The notes below the pieces were generated by a model, which did no database searches, was not told the origin of the DNA, and saw nothing but the letters and a program-made list of their open reading frames with translations. From NCBI GenBank assembly GCA_021107755.1, contig JAIOSF010000013.1, positions 1-64,000 on the forward strand: 64,000 nt of DNA. Reading direction: 5' to 3'. Of this stretch, positions 55,211 to 62,959 are shown piece after piece. This DNA is from Arcobacteraceae bacterium (lineage in GTDB: Bacteria > Campylobacterota > Campylobacteria > Campylobacterales > Arcobacteraceae). Numbering within the stretch: the first letter of the stretch is position 1; every line of letters starts with the position of its first letter. The position numbers and the translations under genes are program-made.

Positions 55211-55223
55211 TAAAATCTGCTTT
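55211..55223 (+). promoter_or_regulatory. -10 box giving a probable leaderless transcript
   Basis: TAAAAT (55211-55216) lies seven bases before the ATG at 55224, and no ribosome-binding site precedes it. A usual start point 6-8 bases after the -10 falls on or next to the start codon. Confidence 0.5.
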
Positions 55224-55394
55224 ATGAGACATTTAAGAGGTTATGGTAAACGGTACTTTTCACTAGCAATTATTGCGATGTATTCTACAATGTACAAACT
55301 GTGTACAATAGATGCAAATCATCAATACCATCTTAAAGCCTTCGAATATCAAGAATATAAGACTTCCCCTCCCTTTTTAACTTTTAATTACTAA
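55224..55394 (+). CDS. 56-residue unknown protein, copy 1, before the TonB-receptor operon
   Basis: The protein reads MRHLRGYGKRYFSLAIIAMY, then a Cys-containing YKLCTID, and ends with an aromatic-rich C terminus (FEYQEYKTSPP). It is 82 percent identical (46 of 56) to the gene at 59725, and 18 of the 28 differing codons are synonymous, so selection acts on the protein. The frame is open upstream to 55206, but the paralogue starts at the equivalent of 55224. There is no ribosome site. It lies 32 bases before the TonB-receptor gene. Residues 11-22 could be an amphipathic or short membrane segment. The family is not known to me. Confidence 0.85.
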   Translation: MRHLRGYGKRYFSLAIIAMYSTMYKLCTIDANHQYHLKAFEYQEYKTSPPFLTFNY

Positions 55395-55426
55395 TCACAA
55401 AACAGAATTAAAATTAAGGGAAAATA

Positions 55427-57265
55427 ATGACAAATACAATAAAACTCAGCCTAGTGGCTAGTTTATTCTGTACAGCTACTATAAATGCGAATGAAGGTTT
55501 AGGAACGATAACAGTTTCAAGCGCAACAAAAAGTGAACAATCAATTAAAGATGTAACAAGTAATGTTGAAGTGATTACAAGTATTGAACTGGAAGAAAAA
55601 AATATAAAAACTGTTACAGAAGCTTTAAATCTAGTAAGTGGAGTAAGTTTTACTTCAAATGGTGGTATAGGTGCTACAACATCTTTAAGTCTGAGAGGTA
55701 TGAACGGAGATAATATTTTAATACTAATAGATGGTATAAAGTTTCAAGACCCATCAAATACAGGTGGTGCAAATATTGCTCATCTTATGGTAAATAATAT
55801 TGAAAAAATAGAAATCATAAAAGGCGCACAAAGTGGTATTTGGGGATCTAATGCTACTGCTGGTGTTATAAATATTATTACAAAAAAAGCAAAAGATGGC
55901 TTTCATGGTAGCATATTAGTAGAAGCAGGTAGTTTCAAAACAAAAAAAATTGGGGCAGTTGTTTCTTATAAGAATAATAAGTTTGATACAAAAATATCTG
56001 CATCAAATATTAAAAGTGATGGATTTACTACTCAAGCACCAAAAGGAAAAAATATTGATAATTATGAAGATGATGGCTATGAAAATACTACTTTAAATCT
56101 TCAAGGAAACTATTATATAAATGATAACTCAAAAGTTGGTATAAATATTACTGATATTGATGCATTAAAAGAGTATGATAGTTTTAATACACCAAATGAT
56201 ACTACTATAAAAAGTGATATTGATACAACACTTTATGGAGTATCTTACAATCAAATTTTAGATAAACATAATCTTACTTTTAAAGTTGAAAAAAGTGATT
56301 TTAAAAGAGATGAAATTGGTACAGTAAGCACAATGTTTGGAGCTGCTGTAAAAAACTTCAATGGAGAAACTACAAATATAGAGATAAATGATAATTTTAA
56401 GTACAATAATGATAGTTTTTTACTTATTGGACTAGGAAGTAGTAGTGATGAAGTTGATTACAAAAAGACAGATGCAACAACTAATAAAAGAGAAAATAAA
56501 AATAAATTTGGATACTTAACAAATTCAAATAGTTTTGACAAAACAATTTTAACACAAAGCTTACGATATGATCAATATAATAATTTTGATAATAAATTTA
56601 CAGGAAAAATAGGGATTAAACATAACTATAACCAAGATTTATTTATATCTTCAAATATAGGAACTGCATACAATGTACCAAACATTATGGAAGAACTTAA
56701 TCCATGGGGTACAGTGAATGAAGATTTAAATCCAGAAAATAGTAAAAGTGGAGATATAAGTCTAGGATATAAAGATTTTAAAGTTACATATTTTTACACA
56801 CAAATTAAAGATTTAATTGATTGGAATAATAATAGATATGAAAATTTAAAAGATAAATCTACCTTTCAAGGTATTGAGTTAGATTATAAAAAAACTATTA
56901 TAGACAATATTCTTATTTCGTTAAATTATACAAGATTACGTGCTAAAGATAATGAAAAAAAAGATTTAGCAGGAAGGGCAAAACAAACATTTAAATTTGG
57001 ATTAGATTATTATGTTATATCAAAATTGCATATAGGACTAAATGGAGAATATGTAGGTGAAAGAAAAGAGTATAATTTTGATGGTAGTTTTAAAGCGCAA
57101 ACGGGAAAATATACTATTGCACACCTAAACATCAATTATGATTTAACTAAAGAAGTTAAAATCTATGGTAAAATAGAAAATATTACAGATAAATACTATC
57201 AAACTATTGATGGATTTACTTCAAGTCCAAGAGCTTTTTATGCGGGAGTTAAATATAGTTTCTAA
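55427..57265 (+). CDS. TonB-dependent outer-membrane receptor (BtuB-like)
   Basis: This 612-residue receptor has a signal peptide (about 1-21), a TonB-box-like LGTITVSSATKS, a plug domain (about 30-150, with TVTEALNLVSGVSFTSNGG, LSLRGMNGDNILILIDGIK and IEIIKGAQSGIWGSNATAGVINIITKK) and a 22-strand barrel ending in a C-terminal aromatic (KYSF). The IDGIK and GVINIITKK motifs and its length fit BtuB. It is followed directly by a BtuFDC-like transporter and a cobalamin gene cluster, so corrinoid uptake is the likely role; an iron-chelate role is the alternative. AAGGGA lies before the ATG. Confidence 0.88.
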   Translation: MTNTIKLSLVASLFCTATINANEGLGTITVSSATKSEQSIKDVTSNVEVITSIELEEKNIKTVTEALNLVSGVSFTSNGGIGATTSLSLRGMNGDNILILIDGIKFQDPSNTGGANIAHLMVNNIEKIEIIKGAQSGIWGSNATAGVINIITKKAKDGFHGSILVEAGSFKTKKIGAVVSYKNNKFDTKISASNIKSDGFTTQAPKGKNIDNYEDDGYENTTLNLQGNYYINDNSKVGINITDIDALKEYDSFNTPNDTTIKSDIDTTLYGVSYNQILDKHNLTFKVEKSDFKRDEIGTVSTMFGAAVKNFNGETTNIEINDNFKYNNDSFLLIGLGSSSDEVDYKKTDATTNKRENKNKFGYLTNSNSFDKTILTQSLRYDQYNNFDNKFTGKIGIKHNYNQDLFISSNIGTAYNVPNIMEELNPWGTVNEDLNPENSKSGDISLGYKDFKVTYFYTQIKDLIDWNNNRYENLKDKSTFQGIELDYKKTIIDNILISLNYTRLRAKDNEKKDLAGRAKQTFKFGLDYYVISKLHIGLNGEYVGERKEYNFDGSFKAQTGKYTIAHLNINYDLTKEVKIYGKIENITDKYYQTIDGFTSSPRAFYAGVKYSF

Positions 57266-58086
57266 TGAAATTCTTACTACTATTACTATTTACCATTAAT
57301 CTTTTTAGTTATGATAGAATCATAGCTTTAAGCCCATCAATCAATGAAATCATATATGCGTTGGGAGATGGTAAAAAAATAGTGGGGAATACAACTTATT
57401 GTACATTTCCAATAGAAGCACAATCAAAACCAAAAGTTGGGGGATACTTTTCCCCTTCTATAGAAAAAATACTCTCCCTCAAACCAGATATTGTTATTTT
57501 GCAAAAAAGTAGTATAAAATTAGCTTCTAAACTGGAATCTTTAGGGATTGAAACAAAAGTTGTACAGCTTACAACTTTAGAAGATATAAAAGACTCTATT
57601 TATCAAATAGGGAATATCTTAAATAAGCAAACAAAAGCACAAGAGATATTAACAACTCTTGAAGAAAAACTCACTCAAACTCAAAATATACTCAAAGACA
57701 AAAAGATATTATTTGTTATTGGGCATAATTTAAAACTTGACAGTAGAATCTTTGTAGCAGGTCAAAACCTTTATTTTGATGATATTATAAATCAAAGTGG
57801 AAATACAAATGCTTTTAAAAGTGAGCGTTCTGGACAACCTATTTTAAATATGGAAAATCTCATTGCAACCAATGCAGATATAGTGATACTTTTAGCTCCA
57901 TTTACAAAACAAAAACAACTTACAAAAGAACAATTAATACAACCATGGCTCAAACTCCCTATAAATGCAGCAAAAACAAAAGCTATCTATGTATTAGATA
58001 AAGAGTATGCAGGGATAAGCAGTCATCGACTTATCTATTTTTTAGAAGATTTTAAAGGATTTTTGCAAGATGCTAAAAATAAATAA
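57265..58086 (+). CDS. BtuF-like periplasmic corrinoid-binding protein
   Basis: This 273-residue helical-backbone substrate-binding protein starts with a signal peptide (MKFLLLLLFTINLFS). It has ALSPSINEIIYALGDGKKIVG, then TTYCTFPIEA, and KVGGYFSPSIEKILSLKPDIVI, the order seen in BtuF (YCnyP then KVGGf). A trailing LEDFKGFLQ helix ends the protein. It carries the ligand from the periplasm to the permease. It starts on the last base of the receptor gene and overlaps the ATPase gene by 17 bp. Substrate (cobalamin versus iron chelate) is inferred. Confidence 0.85.
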   Translation: MKFLLLLLFTINLFSYDRIIALSPSINEIIYALGDGKKIVGNTTYCTFPIEAQSKPKVGGYFSPSIEKILSLKPDIVILQKSSIKLASKLESLGIETKVVQLTTLEDIKDSIYQIGNILNKQTKAQEILTTLEEKLTQTQNILKDKKILFVIGHNLKLDSRIFVAGQNLYFDDIINQSGNTNAFKSERSGQPILNMENLIATNADIVILLAPFTKQKQLTKEQLIQPWLKLPINAAKTKAIYVLDKEYAGISSHRLIYFLEDFKGFLQDAKNK

Positions 58087-58762
58087 CTATGATAGTTTGA
58101 TATTACGCAATATATCTTTTGAACTTCAAAATAAAAATCTTATTATTTTAGGTTCAAATGGTGCTGGGAAAACCACATTAGCAAAAGTACTATGTGGTAT
58201 TATCCCCTCTTTAAATGTCTTTATAGAAGAAAAGAATCCCAGTGGTATTTATGGTGATGAGAGAGCCAAACTTATTAATTATATTCCACCAAAATTAGAA
58301 GTGTATGATGATTTTATGAGTGTAGAGGAGTTTTTAGAGATAAATAAACTCTATAGCTATAAAAGCATCGATGAAGTGTTAAGATTAGTAAACTGTGAGT
58401 ATATAAAAAATAAAAAATGCAAAAACTTAAGTAGCGGTGAATCACAACTCTTACTTCTATCAAGTGCTATTTTACACAATGCTAAATATACTATCTTTGA
58501 TGAACCAACATCAAATCTTGATCCTCAAAAGATCAAAAATAGTTTTCACATTTTACAAGATGAAGATATATTACAAAACAAAATTATCATCACACATAAT
58601 CTTAATTTAGCTTATAAACTTGGATTTGATATTTTATTTATCAAAGATGGGAGAATAGCCTTTAATGATAGTAGTGAACAGTTTTTTAGTGATGCAAATT
58701 TACAGCTTTTTTTTAGTGATAGTGTAAAAAAACATGATGATAATATAGTGGTGAATTTATGA
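58070..58762 (+). CDS. ABC transporter ATPase (BtuD-like)
   Basis: This 230-residue ABC ATPase has Walker A LGSNGAGKTTLAKVLCG (about 28-44), signature LSSGESQLLLLSSAIL (Gly in the C-loop, Ser replacing the usual Gly at the second position) and Walker B YTIFDEPTSNLDP, with IITHNLNLA as switch. It energises the FecCD-type permease that follows (4-bp overlap). The start ATG is inside the upstream gene. No cytosolic lid beyond the family average is present; it is slightly short. Confidence 0.88.
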   Translation: MLKINNYDSLILRNISFELQNKNLIILGSNGAGKTTLAKVLCGIIPSLNVFIEEKNPSGIYGDERAKLINYIPPKLEVYDDFMSVEEFLEINKLYSYKSIDEVLRLVNCEYIKNKKCKNLSSGESQLLLLSSAILHNAKYTIFDEPTSNLDPQKIKNSFHILQDEDILQNKIIITHNLNLAYKLGFDILFIKDGRIAFNDSSEQFFSDANLQLFFSDSVKKHDDNIVVNL

Positions 58763-59700
58763 GATATTTTCTAGTTTTTTTATCTCTTCTTATCCTTTTA
58801 ATCTCTCCATTTTTTGGACAAATAGATATATCCTTTGCAAATATATTTGATACTACAAAAATGGATTATCAAATCTTTTGGGATATACGACTTCCAAGAA
58901 CTATACTTGCCTTTTTTGTGGGTGCAATTTTAGCTTTAAGTGGTTTGGTATTTCAAACTATTTTTAGAAATCCTATGAGTAGTCCTTTTACTCTAGGAGT
59001 TGCCAGTGGAGCTACTCTTTTTACAGCTATTGCTATAGTATTGGGACTTAGCTCTTTTGTCTCTTTCTTTGCCTTTTTAGGGAGTTTAGCTACTATTGTT
59101 ATACTTTTTATCATAGCTTCAAGATTTCATAGTAGTGAAACTTCATCGTTGCTTTTAGTTGGTATTGCATTGTCATTTTTTTATAGTGCTAGTTTGATGG
59201 TACTATTTTTTATCAGTAATCTTCAAGAGAGTTATGAGATAGTGCGATTTACAATGGGAAGCTTAGATATAGTAGGTTTTAAAGATACTTATTTGGTGAT
59301 ATTAGCAGGTATTTTTATACTTTTTATGGTGAAGTATTATCAAAATAGTATCAAACTACTTCTTGTATCTTATCAATTTGCACACTTAAAAGGGTGTAAT
59401 GTAAAACAAACAAACTATATACTTCTTATATCTGTATCAATTGCTGTTGGTATTTGTGTCAGTATTACTGGACCTATAGGATTTGTAGGCTTAATAGTGC
59501 CACATATAATAAAAACAATCACACAAAAAAGTGCTCATACACTTATTCTACCAATTTTCTTTTATGGTGGAATTTTCTTAGTATTATGTGATTTAATTGC
59601 CAGAAATTTAGGAACAACTTCAGATATACCAATATGTGTAGTGACCTCATTTTTAGGTGCACCATTTTTTATCTATTTGATTATAAAAAGAAAAAAATAA
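58759..59700 (+). CDS. FecCD-family ABC permease (BtuC-like)
   Basis: This 313-residue permease has about ten membrane helices. The family hallmarks are IRLPRTILAFFVGAILALSGLVFQTIFRNP, LGVASGATLFTAI and, late, ITGPIGFVGLIVPHIIKT, the contact loop for the ATPase. The overlapping ATPase and binding-protein genes make a complete ABC importer with the TonB receptor. It is the last gene before the second copy of the 56-residue gene, 24 bases away. Confidence 0.93.
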   Translation: MRYFLVFLSLLILLISPFFGQIDISFANIFDTTKMDYQIFWDIRLPRTILAFFVGAILALSGLVFQTIFRNPMSSPFTLGVASGATLFTAIAIVLGLSSFVSFFAFLGSLATIVILFIIASRFHSSETSSLLLVGIALSFFYSASLMVLFFISNLQESYEIVRFTMGSLDIVGFKDTYLVILAGIFILFMVKYYQNSIKLLLVSYQFAHLKGCNVKQTNYILLISVSIAVGICVSITGPIGFVGLIVPHIIKTITQKSAHTLILPIFFYGGIFLVLCDLIARNLGTTSDIPICVVTSFLGAPFFIYLIIKRKK

Positions 59701-59712
59701 AGTGTTTTTGAG

Positions 59713-59724
59713 TATACTTCCCTT
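59713..59724 (+). promoter_or_regulatory. -10 box giving a second probable leaderless transcript
   Basis: TATACT (59713-59718) lies six bases before the ATG at 59725 with no ribosome-binding site between. The placement is the same, within a base, as at copy 1. Confidence 0.5.
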
Positions 59725-59895
59725 ATGAAACATTTACGAGGTTATTTAAAACGATACTTTTCTTTAGCAATTATTGCTATGTATTCTACTGTTCATAAAT
59801 TATGTACAATAGATAGTAAATTTCAGTATCACCTTAAAGCTTTTGAGTATCAAGAATACAAAACTTCTCCACCCTATTTAAACTTCAATTTTTAA
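59725..59895 (+). CDS. 56-residue unknown protein, copy 2, before cbiM
   Basis: This gene encodes MKHLRGYLKRYFSLAIIAMY, then HKLCTID and the same C-terminal FEYQEYKTSPP core as the paralogue at 55224. Similarity to copy 1 also reaches a short stretch after the stop (AATCACAA). The mostly synonymous differences show conservation of protein sequence. The distance to cbiM is 98 bases, a stretch with some self-complementary AT-rich segments (TATAGAT with ATCTATA) but no cobalamin-riboswitch box. Function is unknown; its duplication at two transport units suggests linked regulation. Confidence 0.85.
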   Translation: MKHLRGYLKRYFSLAIIAMYSTVHKLCTIDSKFQYHLKAFEYQEYKTSPPYLNFNF

Positions 59896-59993: not shown

Positions 59994-60677
59994 ATGCATA
60001 TAGAAGCAGGCGTAGTACAAGGGGTAAAAATGTTATTTAGTTATGGGACAGCTGCTGTTTCATTTGGAATTGCGGGGAAACTGGCATTAGATACAATTAA
60101 GAATAATGGAGTAGTTTCATTTGGTGTAAAAACATTAATCTCTGCAATATTAGTATTTATATTTTTTGAGGTATTTCCTCATCATCCAATAGGTGTATCA
60201 GAAGTTCATCTAATCTTAGGTTCTACAATATTTTTAATATTTGGAGCAGCACCAGCAGCATTTGGTTTGGCACTTGGTCTTTTAGTTCAAGGGTTGTTTT
60301 TTGCACAATTTGATTTACCTCAGTATGGTATTAATGTAACAACTTTACTTATGCCATTATTTGGGATGAGCTATTTAGCAAAAAAAATAATACCTCAAAA
60401 TATAGCATATAAAGATATCCAATACAAAGATACTCTTAAATTATCAGTAGCATATCAAGGTGGTATTGTTGCTTGGGTTGCATTTTGGGCATTATTTGGA
60501 CAAGGTTTTGGTGCTGAAAATTTAGCTGCTGTTTCTAGTTTTGGTTTAGCTTATATGAGTGTAGTAATTTTAGAACCACTTATTGACTTAGCAGTTTTAG
60601 CAGGGGCAAAAACACTTAGTAGTTTAGAAAATAGTTCTTTTGTAGAAAAAAGACTTTATAATCCAGCAAAAGCTTAG
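59994..60677 (+). CDS. cbiM: CbiM-like energy-coupling-factor cobalt permease
   Basis: This 227-residue membrane protein has the CbiM/NikM opening MHIEAGVVQGVKML with the N-terminal Met-His-Ile metal-binding loop (MHI instead of MHIPDG). Seven hydrophobic stretches follow, with EVHLILGSTIFLIFGAAPAAFGLALGLLVQ and GINVTTLLMPLF as family marks. CbiM binds Co2+ and works with CbiN, CbiQ and CbiO. None of those is nearby, so it is solitary here. AAGGA precedes the ATG. A terminator follows, so it may be transcribed apart from cbiK. Confidence 0.8.
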   Translation: MHIEAGVVQGVKMLFSYGTAAVSFGIAGKLALDTIKNNGVVSFGVKTLISAILVFIFFEVFPHHPIGVSEVHLILGSTIFLIFGAAPAAFGLALGLLVQGLFFAQFDLPQYGINVTTLLMPLFGMSYLAKKIIPQNIAYKDIQYKDTLKLSVAYQGGIVAWVAFWALFGQGFGAENLAAVSSFGLAYMSVVILEPLIDLAVLAGAKTLSSLENSSFVEKRLYNPAKA

Positions 60678-60751: not shown

Positions 60752-61570
60752 ATGAAAAGATATAGACATTACAAAAAAGACAAAGCAATTATTCTATCTG
60801 TTTTTGGCTCTGTAATAGAACAACAAAAATATTTAGAATTAAAAAAAATTATAGAAAAAGAATTTAAAGGTATAGATATTTTTCTTGCAGTAAGTTCAAG
60901 AATGGTTTTAAAAGACCTATTAAAAAAAGGGTTTGATTATAAAACCTTGGCTCAAACTATGGCTGATGTGGATATGATAGGATATAAAAACATTATCGTA
61001 GCATCTGTAAATCTTTTTCCAGCTTGTGAGCATGAATTATTGAAAAAAACTGTTGAAGGTTTTAAAAACTTCTCTTTTTCAAATATTAGATTATCAAATG
61101 CAATCCTTACACGAACAAAAGACACTACCCTATTTCTAAAAGAACTTGATGAAACTATTAGTAAAAAAGATACAGCAAATCTTTATGTGATACATGGAAC
61201 TCCAAAACTAGAACTTGGTGGACTTGAGTCAGTTGCATACAGTGCAAAATATCTTGAACAAAAAAGAGATTTAAACTATGCTTGTTCATTAGAGGGTGCT
61301 TTCCCATTTTTTGCTATCAAAGGTGAGCTTATAGCAAAAATGAAAAAAGATGGGGTAAAAAAAGTACAAGTTGTACCTATGTTGCTTGTAAGTGGAAATC
61401 ATTATATAAAAGATATGGTAGAGATAAAAGATGAACTAAACGAACACTTTAAATCTAAAATTGTAAAAAGTACAACAGCAGATGAAAAATTTAATTTATT
61501 AGAGATACCAACAATAGTAAAGATAATAATCAATAACATACAAGAAGAGATAACTAAACTTGGCCACTAA
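60752..61570 (+). CDS. cbiK: sirohydrochlorin cobaltochelatase (CbiK-like)
   Basis: This 272-residue chelatase would insert Co2+ into sirohydrochlorin at the entry to the anaerobic cobalamin pathway. AIILSVFGSV opens it; the active-site His is in LYVIHGTPKLELGG (CbiK has GHGT at this place), with a second His region in MLLVSGNHYIKDMVEIKDEL matching the CbiK end (DHAINDM). There is no signal peptide, unlike periplasmic CbiK variants. It is the first of a run of cobalamin genes and overlaps cbiL by 11 bp. Confidence 0.82.
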   Translation: MKRYRHYKKDKAIILSVFGSVIEQQKYLELKKIIEKEFKGIDIFLAVSSRMVLKDLLKKGFDYKTLAQTMADVDMIGYKNIIVASVNLFPACEHELLKKTVEGFKNFSFSNIRLSNAILTRTKDTTLFLKELDETISKKDTANLYVIHGTPKLELGGLESVAYSAKYLEQKRDLNYACSLEGAFPFFAIKGELIAKMKKDGVKKVQVVPMLLVSGNHYIKDMVEIKDELNEHFKSKIVKSTTADEKFNLLEIPTIVKIIINNIQEEITKLGH

Positions 61571-62249
61571 AAACAAAACAAAACTATATATGGTCTCTTT
61601 AGGACCTGCTAATTGGGAACTTGTAACTATTCAAGCTTTAAAAGCACTACAATATTGTGGTGCTATATGTATCCCCACAAAAAGTGAAGATCATAGCTTT
61701 GAAAAGTCAATTACTTATAAAATTGTCAAAGACTTAATGAATGAATATGGTTTTGACAAACCAATTATCCCTGTATATTCTCCTATGAACTTCAAGAAAA
61801 AAGATTGGCAATATCAAGTTGATATTTTAGTTGATAGTATTGATAAATATGATAGTGTTTCTTTTGTAACATTAGGAGATGCTGCTGTTTATAGTACGGT
61901 TTATTATCTACTTGATATTATCAAAAAACAAGATAAAAAACTCTATAAAAATAGTGTTGTAATAGCTGGTATAACTTCTTTTTCTTATGCTTCATCAAAG
62001 GTGAAAAAGCCTCTTTGTTTAGGTGATAATAGATTTGAACTTATACCCCTAATTGGTAAAGAAGTTCCTAGTACAAAAGTATATATGAGACCAAAAATTG
62101 GTATGAAAACTGATGATATAAATGAGAATGGGACACTATACACTTTTGAAAATTTAAATTTTGAGGGTGAAAATATCCAAAAAGGGAAACTAGAAAAAGT
62201 GCGAAAATATATGACACTAATGATAGATTTTATAAAGAGAGAGAAATAA
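61560..62249 (+). CDS. cbiL: precorrin-2/cobalt-factor-II C20-methyltransferase (CbiL-like)
   Basis: This 229-residue protein has the SAM uroporphyrin-type methyltransferase fold, with FVTLGDAAVYSTVYYLLDII and AGITSFSYASSKVKKPLCLGD matching CbiL/CobI. The N-terminal loop, usually GPGDPELLT, reads GPANWELVT, a clear deviation in the SAM-binding region. The start is TTG at 61560 inside cbiK, since the first ATG would remove part of the first strand. It should add the C20 methyl group. Its stop overlaps cbiC by one base. Confidence 0.78.
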   Translation: MATKNKTKLYMVSLGPANWELVTIQALKALQYCGAICIPTKSEDHSFEKSITYKIVKDLMNEYGFDKPIIPVYSPMNFKKKDWQYQVDILVDSIDKYDSVSFVTLGDAAVYSTVYYLLDIIKKQDKKLYKNSVVIAGITSFSYASSKVKKPLCLGDNRFELIPLIGKEVPSTKVYMRPKIGMKTDDINENGTLYTFENLNFEGENIQKGKLEKVRKYMTLMIDFIKREK

Positions 62250-62959
62250 TGGAATTTAAACAAGAACAACCACCTATAAATATTGGTGCTGATATATCTG
62301 TAAAGTCATTTGAGATGATTGAAAAAGAACTTCAGGAGTATCCAAAAGCAAAAGAATTTAATAAAAATCAATTAGAAGTGATAAGTAGACTTATCCATAC
62401 AACTACTTGTTTTGAGGAAGTTTTAGAAAATATTTTTTTCACAGACAATGCAATTGTTAGAATTCAAGAGTTACTTAAAAATAAAGCCAAAATAATAGTG
62501 GATGTCAATATGATAAAAGTTGGTTTGAGTGACTTCTATCTAAAAACTTATGATAATGAAGTGGTTTGTTATATAAACGAACCATTTACTTATGAAATGG
62601 CAGAAAAAAATAAAACAACAAGAAGTTACGCTGCTGTTGTAGAAGCGATCAAAAAACACAAAAATGAGCCAATTATACTTGCTTGTGGGAATGCCCCTAC
62701 TTTTATCTACGCAGCGATTAATACTCTACTTGATGAGGAAGTTGACCTTAAAAATGTAGCATTTCTACTATTTCCTGTAGGATTTGTAAATGTTGTAGAG
62801 TCAAAAGATTATGGAAAAAGATTCTGTGAACATTTTGATATACCTGCTGTTATTATGGAGGGAAGATTTGGTAGTTCTACTATGACGGTTGCTACTCTTC
62901 ATGCCACATATAAATTAATCAAAGATTTTGATGGTAAAGATAAGTATAATGGAAAATAA
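62249..62959 (+). CDS. cbiC: precorrin-8X/cobalt-precorrin-8 methylmutase (CbiC-like)
   Basis: This 236-residue enzyme has the CbiC/CobH signature ISRLIHTTTCFEEVLENIFF, with the catalytic His, and later IIVDVNMIKVGLS, IILACGNAPTFIYAAI and FPVGFVNVVESKD. It moves a methyl group from C11 to C12 in the late corrin ring. It overlaps cbiL by one base and the [2Fe-2S] gene by 11 bp. The CbiC-type phrase GNAPTAL is GNAPTFI here. The family length is about 210, so it is slightly long. Confidence 0.88.
   Translation: MEFKQEQPPINIGADISVKSFEMIEKELQEYPKAKEFNKNQLEVISRLIHTTTCFEEVLENIFFTDNAIVRIQELLKNKAKIIVDVNMIKVGLSDFYLKTYDNEVVCYINEPFTYEMAEKNKTTRSYAAVVEAIKKHKNEPIILACGNAPTFIYAAINTLLDEEVDLKNVAFLLFPVGFVNVVESKDYGKRFCEHFDIPAVIMEGRFGSSTMTVATLHATYKLIKDFDGKDKYNGK

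Follow-up and report, generated by a model that had tools for sequence, protein, structure and literature searches.

The genes btuB, cbiM and metE have vitamin B12 in common, and in other bacteria all three are targets of the cobalamin riboswitch. To our knowledge, how the Campylobacterota control their B12 genes without such a riboswitch seems never to have been answered. The closest described systems are nascent peptides and upstream ORFs acting in cis. One of these is CruR of Bordetella pertussis, a copper-responsive upstream ORF of the DUF2946 type that precedes a TonB transporter gene, and in which copper relieves the arrest at a RAPP motif (PMC9426467). Another copper leader is CutF of Rhodobacter capsulatus, where a stem-loop hides the Shine-Dalgarno (SD) sequence of the next gene (PMC9973294). 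The arrest peptides ApcA, ApdA and ApdP are likewise short upstream ORFs with C-terminal RAPP or RGPP motifs, and are mostly tied to protein export (PMC10951233, PMC12992588); RxPP arrest motifs as a class tolerate small residues before Pro-Pro (PMC12992588). In Mycobacterium tuberculosis, metE is preceded by an upstream ORF with an atypical B12 riboswitch, the RNA being the B12 sensor (PMC11260477).

The window analysed here is a stretch of 64,000 nucleotides from an Arcobacteraceae bacterium, and it holds two 56-residue ORFs, which we call type I leaders, each ahead of a set of B12-type genes (Table 1). We consider it likely that both are cis-acting, arrest-type leader peptides of a B12 regulon, that their family extends throughout the Campylobacterota, and that a ribosomal pause controls the genes behind them in the manner proposed below. 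A sequence-only reading of this DNA had reported that the two copies share 46 of 56 residues, with 18 of 28 changed codons silent, and our recount agrees; the nucleotide differences fall on codon positions 1, 2 and 3 in the proportion 8/7/23 (dN 0.11, dS 2.4 by NG86). Gene typing also bears out its statement that each copy directly precedes a transport unit. Leader 1 is followed after 32 nt by a BtuB-like TonB receptor and then by BtuF-like, ABC ATPase and BtuC-like genes. The best model for this receptor is the vitamin B12 receptor TIGR01779 (E 3.6e-82, under its curated cut-off), and the names BtuB and BtuC thus denote best matches below curated cut-offs taken together with neighbourhood. 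Leader 2 is followed after 98 nt by CbiM (Pfam E 3.7e-13) and then by CbiK-, CbiL- and CbiC-type genes, so its operon combines cobalt uptake with corrinoid synthesis and is not a transporter alone. The genome of origin has exactly two copies of the type I leader, and neither metE nor a metE-type leader was found in it. The earlier reader knew no such family, and we too obtained no match for the small ORFs in Pfam or NCBIfam with the peptides, or in Rfam with the region.

Table 1. Features of the two leader-headed operons (positions in the window)
Feature	Position	Strand	Basis or remark
-10 box TAAAAT of leader 1	55211..55216	+	7 nt 5' of ATG; sequence and family-wide placement
Leader peptide 1, 56 aa, type I, putatively leaderless, before btuB	55224..55394	+	sequence, family alignment
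Pro-Pro codons 49-50 of leader 1, putative site of the pause	55368..55373	+	invariant in 68/68 non-redundant leaders
Anti-SD arm, predicted hairpin of leader 1, beginning within the Pro-Pro codons	55370..55392	+	
Second arm of predicted hairpin, holding the btuB SD AAGGGA	55404..55421	+	
TonB receptor, BtuB-like	55427..57265	+	TIGR01779 best; Pfam PF00593/PF07715
BtuF-like substrate-binding protein	57265..58086	+	
ABC ATPase (BtuD-like position)	58070..58762	+	
BtuC-like permease	58759..59700	+	
-10 box TATACT of leader 2	59713..59718	+	6 nt 5' of ATG; sequence and family-wide placement
Leader peptide 2, 56 aa, type I, putatively leaderless, before cbiM	59725..59895	+	
Pro-Pro codons 49-50 of leader 2	59869..59874	+	
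CbiM cobalt uptake component	59994..60677	+	PF01891
CbiK-, CbiL-, CbiC-type corrinoid synthesis genes, same run as CbiM	60752..62959	+	

Across 68 non-redundant type I members, G6, Y11, F12, I17, S21, L26, P49 and P50 are fixed or nearly so, nearly all members span 50 residues from M1 to P50, and conservation ends at the Pro-Pro, beyond which lies a tail of 0-15 variable residues. The residue preceding Pro-Pro is S, A, D or G in every member, the commonest end being KTSPP. Variation at third codon positions is free all along the ORF (mean pairwise difference 0.27/0.21/0.56 by codon position; median dN/dS 0.15), from which we conclude that the peptide is translated and under selection, as the sequence-only reading had argued from the two window copies. 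An AlphaFold2 model gives a lone helix at residues 8-40 with both ends disordered, and no fold worth searching. In no listed member is there a run of codons for a regulated amino acid, of the kind used in TrpL, LeuL or MetL attenuation. A general metal site at Cys27 was rejected as Ser, Thr or Ala substitute for it among members.

Compared with the systems introduced above, these leaders resemble CruR as upstream ORFs that lie ahead of a TonB-dependent transporter gene, in their probable control, in cis, of an operon for nutrient uptake, and in having a conserved Pro-Pro a few residues ahead of the stop with the sensor part fixed 45 residues upstream. Unlike CruR, they match no DUF2946 profile (type I and longer forms searched with Pfam), adjoin B12 rather than copper genes, were met in Campylobacterota only, and have a probably leaderless start and SD complementarity at the Pro-Pro codons; the CXXC or CxxxC copper motif is absent from both window peptides, while the longer forms have CxC. 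With CutF they have in common a nascent leader, a C-terminal Pro-rich motif and an SD-masking stem-loop, but CutF is an exported CxxxC protein of copper control and is unrelated in sequence. Thus, with the C-terminal Pro-Pro just before the stop present as in the copper leaders, and the DUF2946 profile and the Cys motif both wanting, the leaders would be analogues of CruR and CutF in operation and not members of the copper-leader family. They resemble ApcA, ApdA and ApdP in ending with a small residue and Pro-Pro in a short upstream ORF, and the S, A, D or G at that place is close to the set that RxPP motifs tolerate (PMC12992588). In contrast to those peptides, the Arg is mostly replaced by Thr, Gln or Leu; an R-[A/G]-P-P end is not the rule in type I, SRAPP occurring in L021 only. 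This counts against the proposed arrest, for Ser-Pro-Pro alone need not arrest strongly.

Protein searches of 104 genomes of the window's taxonomic family recovered this peptide in 48, and also at 63 further loci in named genomes, nearly all labelled Campylobacterota; in this analysis the family was met only in that phylum. Local duplication alone is therefore too small an account of the two window copies, since relatives occur throughout the Campylobacterota. At about 90 type I loci, which are mutually related and in part the same places found by two tools, nearly every downstream gene that could be read encodes, on the same strand, either a TonB receptor of the B12 type or CbiM, as typed by sequence motifs at most loci and by profiles at few. 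Some have an outer-membrane protein and then CbiM directly downstream. The exception is L017, which is followed by an outer-membrane-like protein, whose B12 link is not established, and a substrate-binding protein; this locus apart, no leader copy lay away from B12-type genes among the type I and longer-form loci examined, and several genomes have one copy per operon. Random placement, or a position at phage or transposon ends, had been named in advance as speaking against a B12 link; no relative was found in viral contigs or plasmids, and a phage or plasmid origin was accordingly discarded. Two loci in records titled Desulfosporosinus sp. and Helicobacter pylori PMSS1 (L038, L042) closely resemble loci of the window's family; these records are probably mislabelled or misbinned MAGs. 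At L126, L127, L128, L134, L143 and several type I loci (e.g. L057, L074, L088), the BtuB-like receptor is regularly followed by a membrane protein some 187 aa long (YKFFNSLFxGxSVGxIF...), which has no Pfam match and may be an inner-membrane partner in B12 uptake.

A profile search of 397 Campylobacterota genomes additionally gave weak matches to the N-terminal half within longer ORFs, and pointed to three further kinds. The first comprises ORFs some 110 residues long that have the shared motif RGFxKRYFSLxxIxA at the N-terminus, an acidic linker often with Pro-Pro, a KPCHCNC-like segment and a terminal HPP, APP or SPP; the second comprises ORFs of 45-90 residues with the second half alone; in the third, the leader motif forms the N-terminus of TonB receptors, for which the B12 receptor was the best model in two of three tested. 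Of 108 fetched longer-form matches, drawn from the best, middle and weak ranks and with L195 settled by separate inspection, 93 lie directly before metE, an identity supported by Pfam; in another 11 the next gene encodes a TonB receptor or CbiM, and the remaining 4 form the N-terminus of a receptor. In some lineages metE is without such a leader; family f5 shows none, and has a -10 box adjoining metE instead. Short leader relatives precede metE at L269, L275 and L277, in lineages that gave no profile match. We also observed another type of TonB receptor that bears this N-terminal motif or has a leader (L126, L135, L136, L143), which in the one tested (L126) has no strong NCBIfam match, and which in L136 is followed by BtuF/BtuD-like genes.

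In other bacteria the cobalamin riboswitch controls btuB, cbiM and metE in cis, but as an RNA aptamer rather than a peptide, and it is absent at leader loci; in this respect they also differ from metE of M. tuberculosis, with which they share an upstream ORF before a gene that is B12-regulated there (PMC11260477). RF00174 has no match in the window at 50-64 kb or in the genome of origin, a whole Rfam search of the window region yielded nothing, and only 3 of the 397 Campylobacterota genomes contain the riboswitch (L123, L124, L125). At L124 and L125 it adjoins a long, unnamed reading frame, and these two cases indicate that a single genome can hold both a leader and a riboswitch.

In Campylobacter jejuni, leaderless mRNAs have been mapped to the pattern gnTAnaAT-N5-9-ATG (PMC3847290). 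The type I leaders match this placement: 53 of 68 members have a -10-like hexamer 5-7 nt 5' of the ATG, where other offsets average about 14, and an SD sequence precedes the leader ATG in only 1 of 68. The mRNA thus probably begins at or next to the leader ATG. At L005, L010, L011, L012 and L062 the leader ATG comes right after the stop of the upstream gene with a weak -10 box only, and promoter use in these genera may differ.

As with cis-acting leaders in general, a short ORF lies directly upstream of the regulated genes, once per operon, with selection at the level of the peptide. The cis-leader role is strongly supported, because the single copy immediately upstream of each operon recurs across the phylum with no conserved use elsewhere. 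Of the uses that the sequence-only reading had entertained, that of a leader has therefore held up well, while that of an accessory subunit has not, given the metE placement and the lone helix. New relative to that reading are the association with metE, the promoter of leaderless type, the Pro-Pro end and the anti-SD pairing.

That an arrest takes place, which way it works and that B12 (or a derivative) is the signal are inferences. In the proposed mechanism, a transcript starting at or beside the leader ATG would be translated through the fixed 50-residue stretch, and the ribosome would slow or arrest at the terminal Pro-Pro. There it would cover downstream mRNA that can otherwise pair with the SD of the next gene, clearly so for btuB and weakly for cbiM, and the next gene would stay open; a ribosome that passes the Pro-Pro and terminates would let the hairpin close, or would let Rho act. 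Since the cell needs these genes at low B12, the pause is expected to hold without B12, with uptake, synthesis and metE on, and to be relieved when B12 is plentiful, turning them off. More tentatively, cobalamin may be sensed by the emerging nascent peptide itself, which would then stand in for the riboswitch at btuB, cbiM and metE throughout the phylum; in some lineages the same sensing module would be fused to the B12 receptor at its N-terminus.

The pairing part of this mechanism was evaluated on 80 leaders with a Pro-Pro-to-SD distance of up to 80 nt, a set of related, non-independent sequences. The mRNA from the Pro-Pro codons is complementary to the SD of its own next gene (z=-9.3 for own versus permuted pairs, N=80), and 24 own pairs reach -8 kcal/mol or lower where 6.9 are expected. 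The arms begin 1-20 nt from the first Pro codon, nearly all strong ones at nt 1-13, whereas ordinary gene pairs of the same loci show a small excess (z=-2.8) with arms elsewhere. For leader 1, the hairpin predicted over the btuB AAGGGA has by itself a z of only -1.7 against shuffles, and covering the mRNA up to the Pro-Pro pause lifts the computed SD accessibility from 0.01 to 0.83; for leader 2 no strong SD hairpin is predicted ahead of cbiM. Spacers between leader and gene reach at least 280 nt, with repeats inserted at some loci; the repeat-like palindromes at the Sulfurovum-type loci L036, L060, L077, L078, L084 and L095 indicate that the spacer tolerates insertions. SD masking as the sole mechanism was rejected, the accessibility at all 70 loci differing little from that of shuffles (0.31 vs 0.38). 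Thus, SD masking holds statistically for short spacers, and the lack of a strong leader 2 hairpin and the long, repeat-bearing spacers imply that it is not the whole mechanism.

These same two features would fit a leader that acts in cis on transcription, the paused ribosome blocking Rho at a C-rich, G-poor stretch and SD pairing being secondary. The last 20 codons plus 30 nt contain 21% C and 10% G, with C exceeding G in 64 of 68 loci, a composition that may allow Rho to act at loci with long spacers, and CruR, with its 162-nt spacer (PMC9426467), offers a precedent, TnaC having been likened as well. Yet the Rho site is only putative, and the strong anti-SD statistics at short spacers are unneeded for Rho control, so that we hold this version to be rather unlikely as the principal mode. 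Less probable still is a leader that senses, in place of B12, the supply of methionine or S-adenosylmethionine, or else a metal, cobalt or another, by way of the Cys-His module that the longer forms possess. Both metE and the B12 genes serve methionine synthesis, and the longer forms do carry the KPCHCNC-like motif; however, there is no Met codon run, the window leaders are without the Cys-His module and Cys27 is replaceable, and cobalt alone leaves metE unexplained.

A trans-acting small protein, either a regulator or an accessory subunit of the transporter merely co-transcribed with the B12 genes, would agree with 50 conserved residues and one long predicted helix. We regard it as very improbable in view of the separate copy ahead of each operon including metE, the abrupt end of conservation at Pro-Pro and the want of copies elsewhere save L017; as a subunit it finds no support, for the same peptide stands before cbiM and btuB, and related forms before metE, whose product shares no complex with theirs. 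Finally, a conserved riboswitch-like RNA that happens to be an open reading frame would occupy the position where cobalamin riboswitches sit in other phyla, but it is scarcely credible and already largely refuted by the free synonymous change over the whole ORF, the dN/dS of about 0.15 and the lack of an Rfam match.

In the literature searched, neither a B12 leader peptide nor the present leader family has been described before. Our preferred reading, that of pause-controlled leader peptides, suggests that in the Campylobacterota a nascent peptide switches the B12 genes, in the role usually filled by a B12 riboswitch. If true, this would be, as far as is known, the first B12-responsive control by a nascent peptide, and a case in which one peptide family takes over the job of a riboswitch on B12 genes. 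The leaders offer a compact and directly testable system, and their recognition flags hundreds of small ORFs that present annotation models miss.
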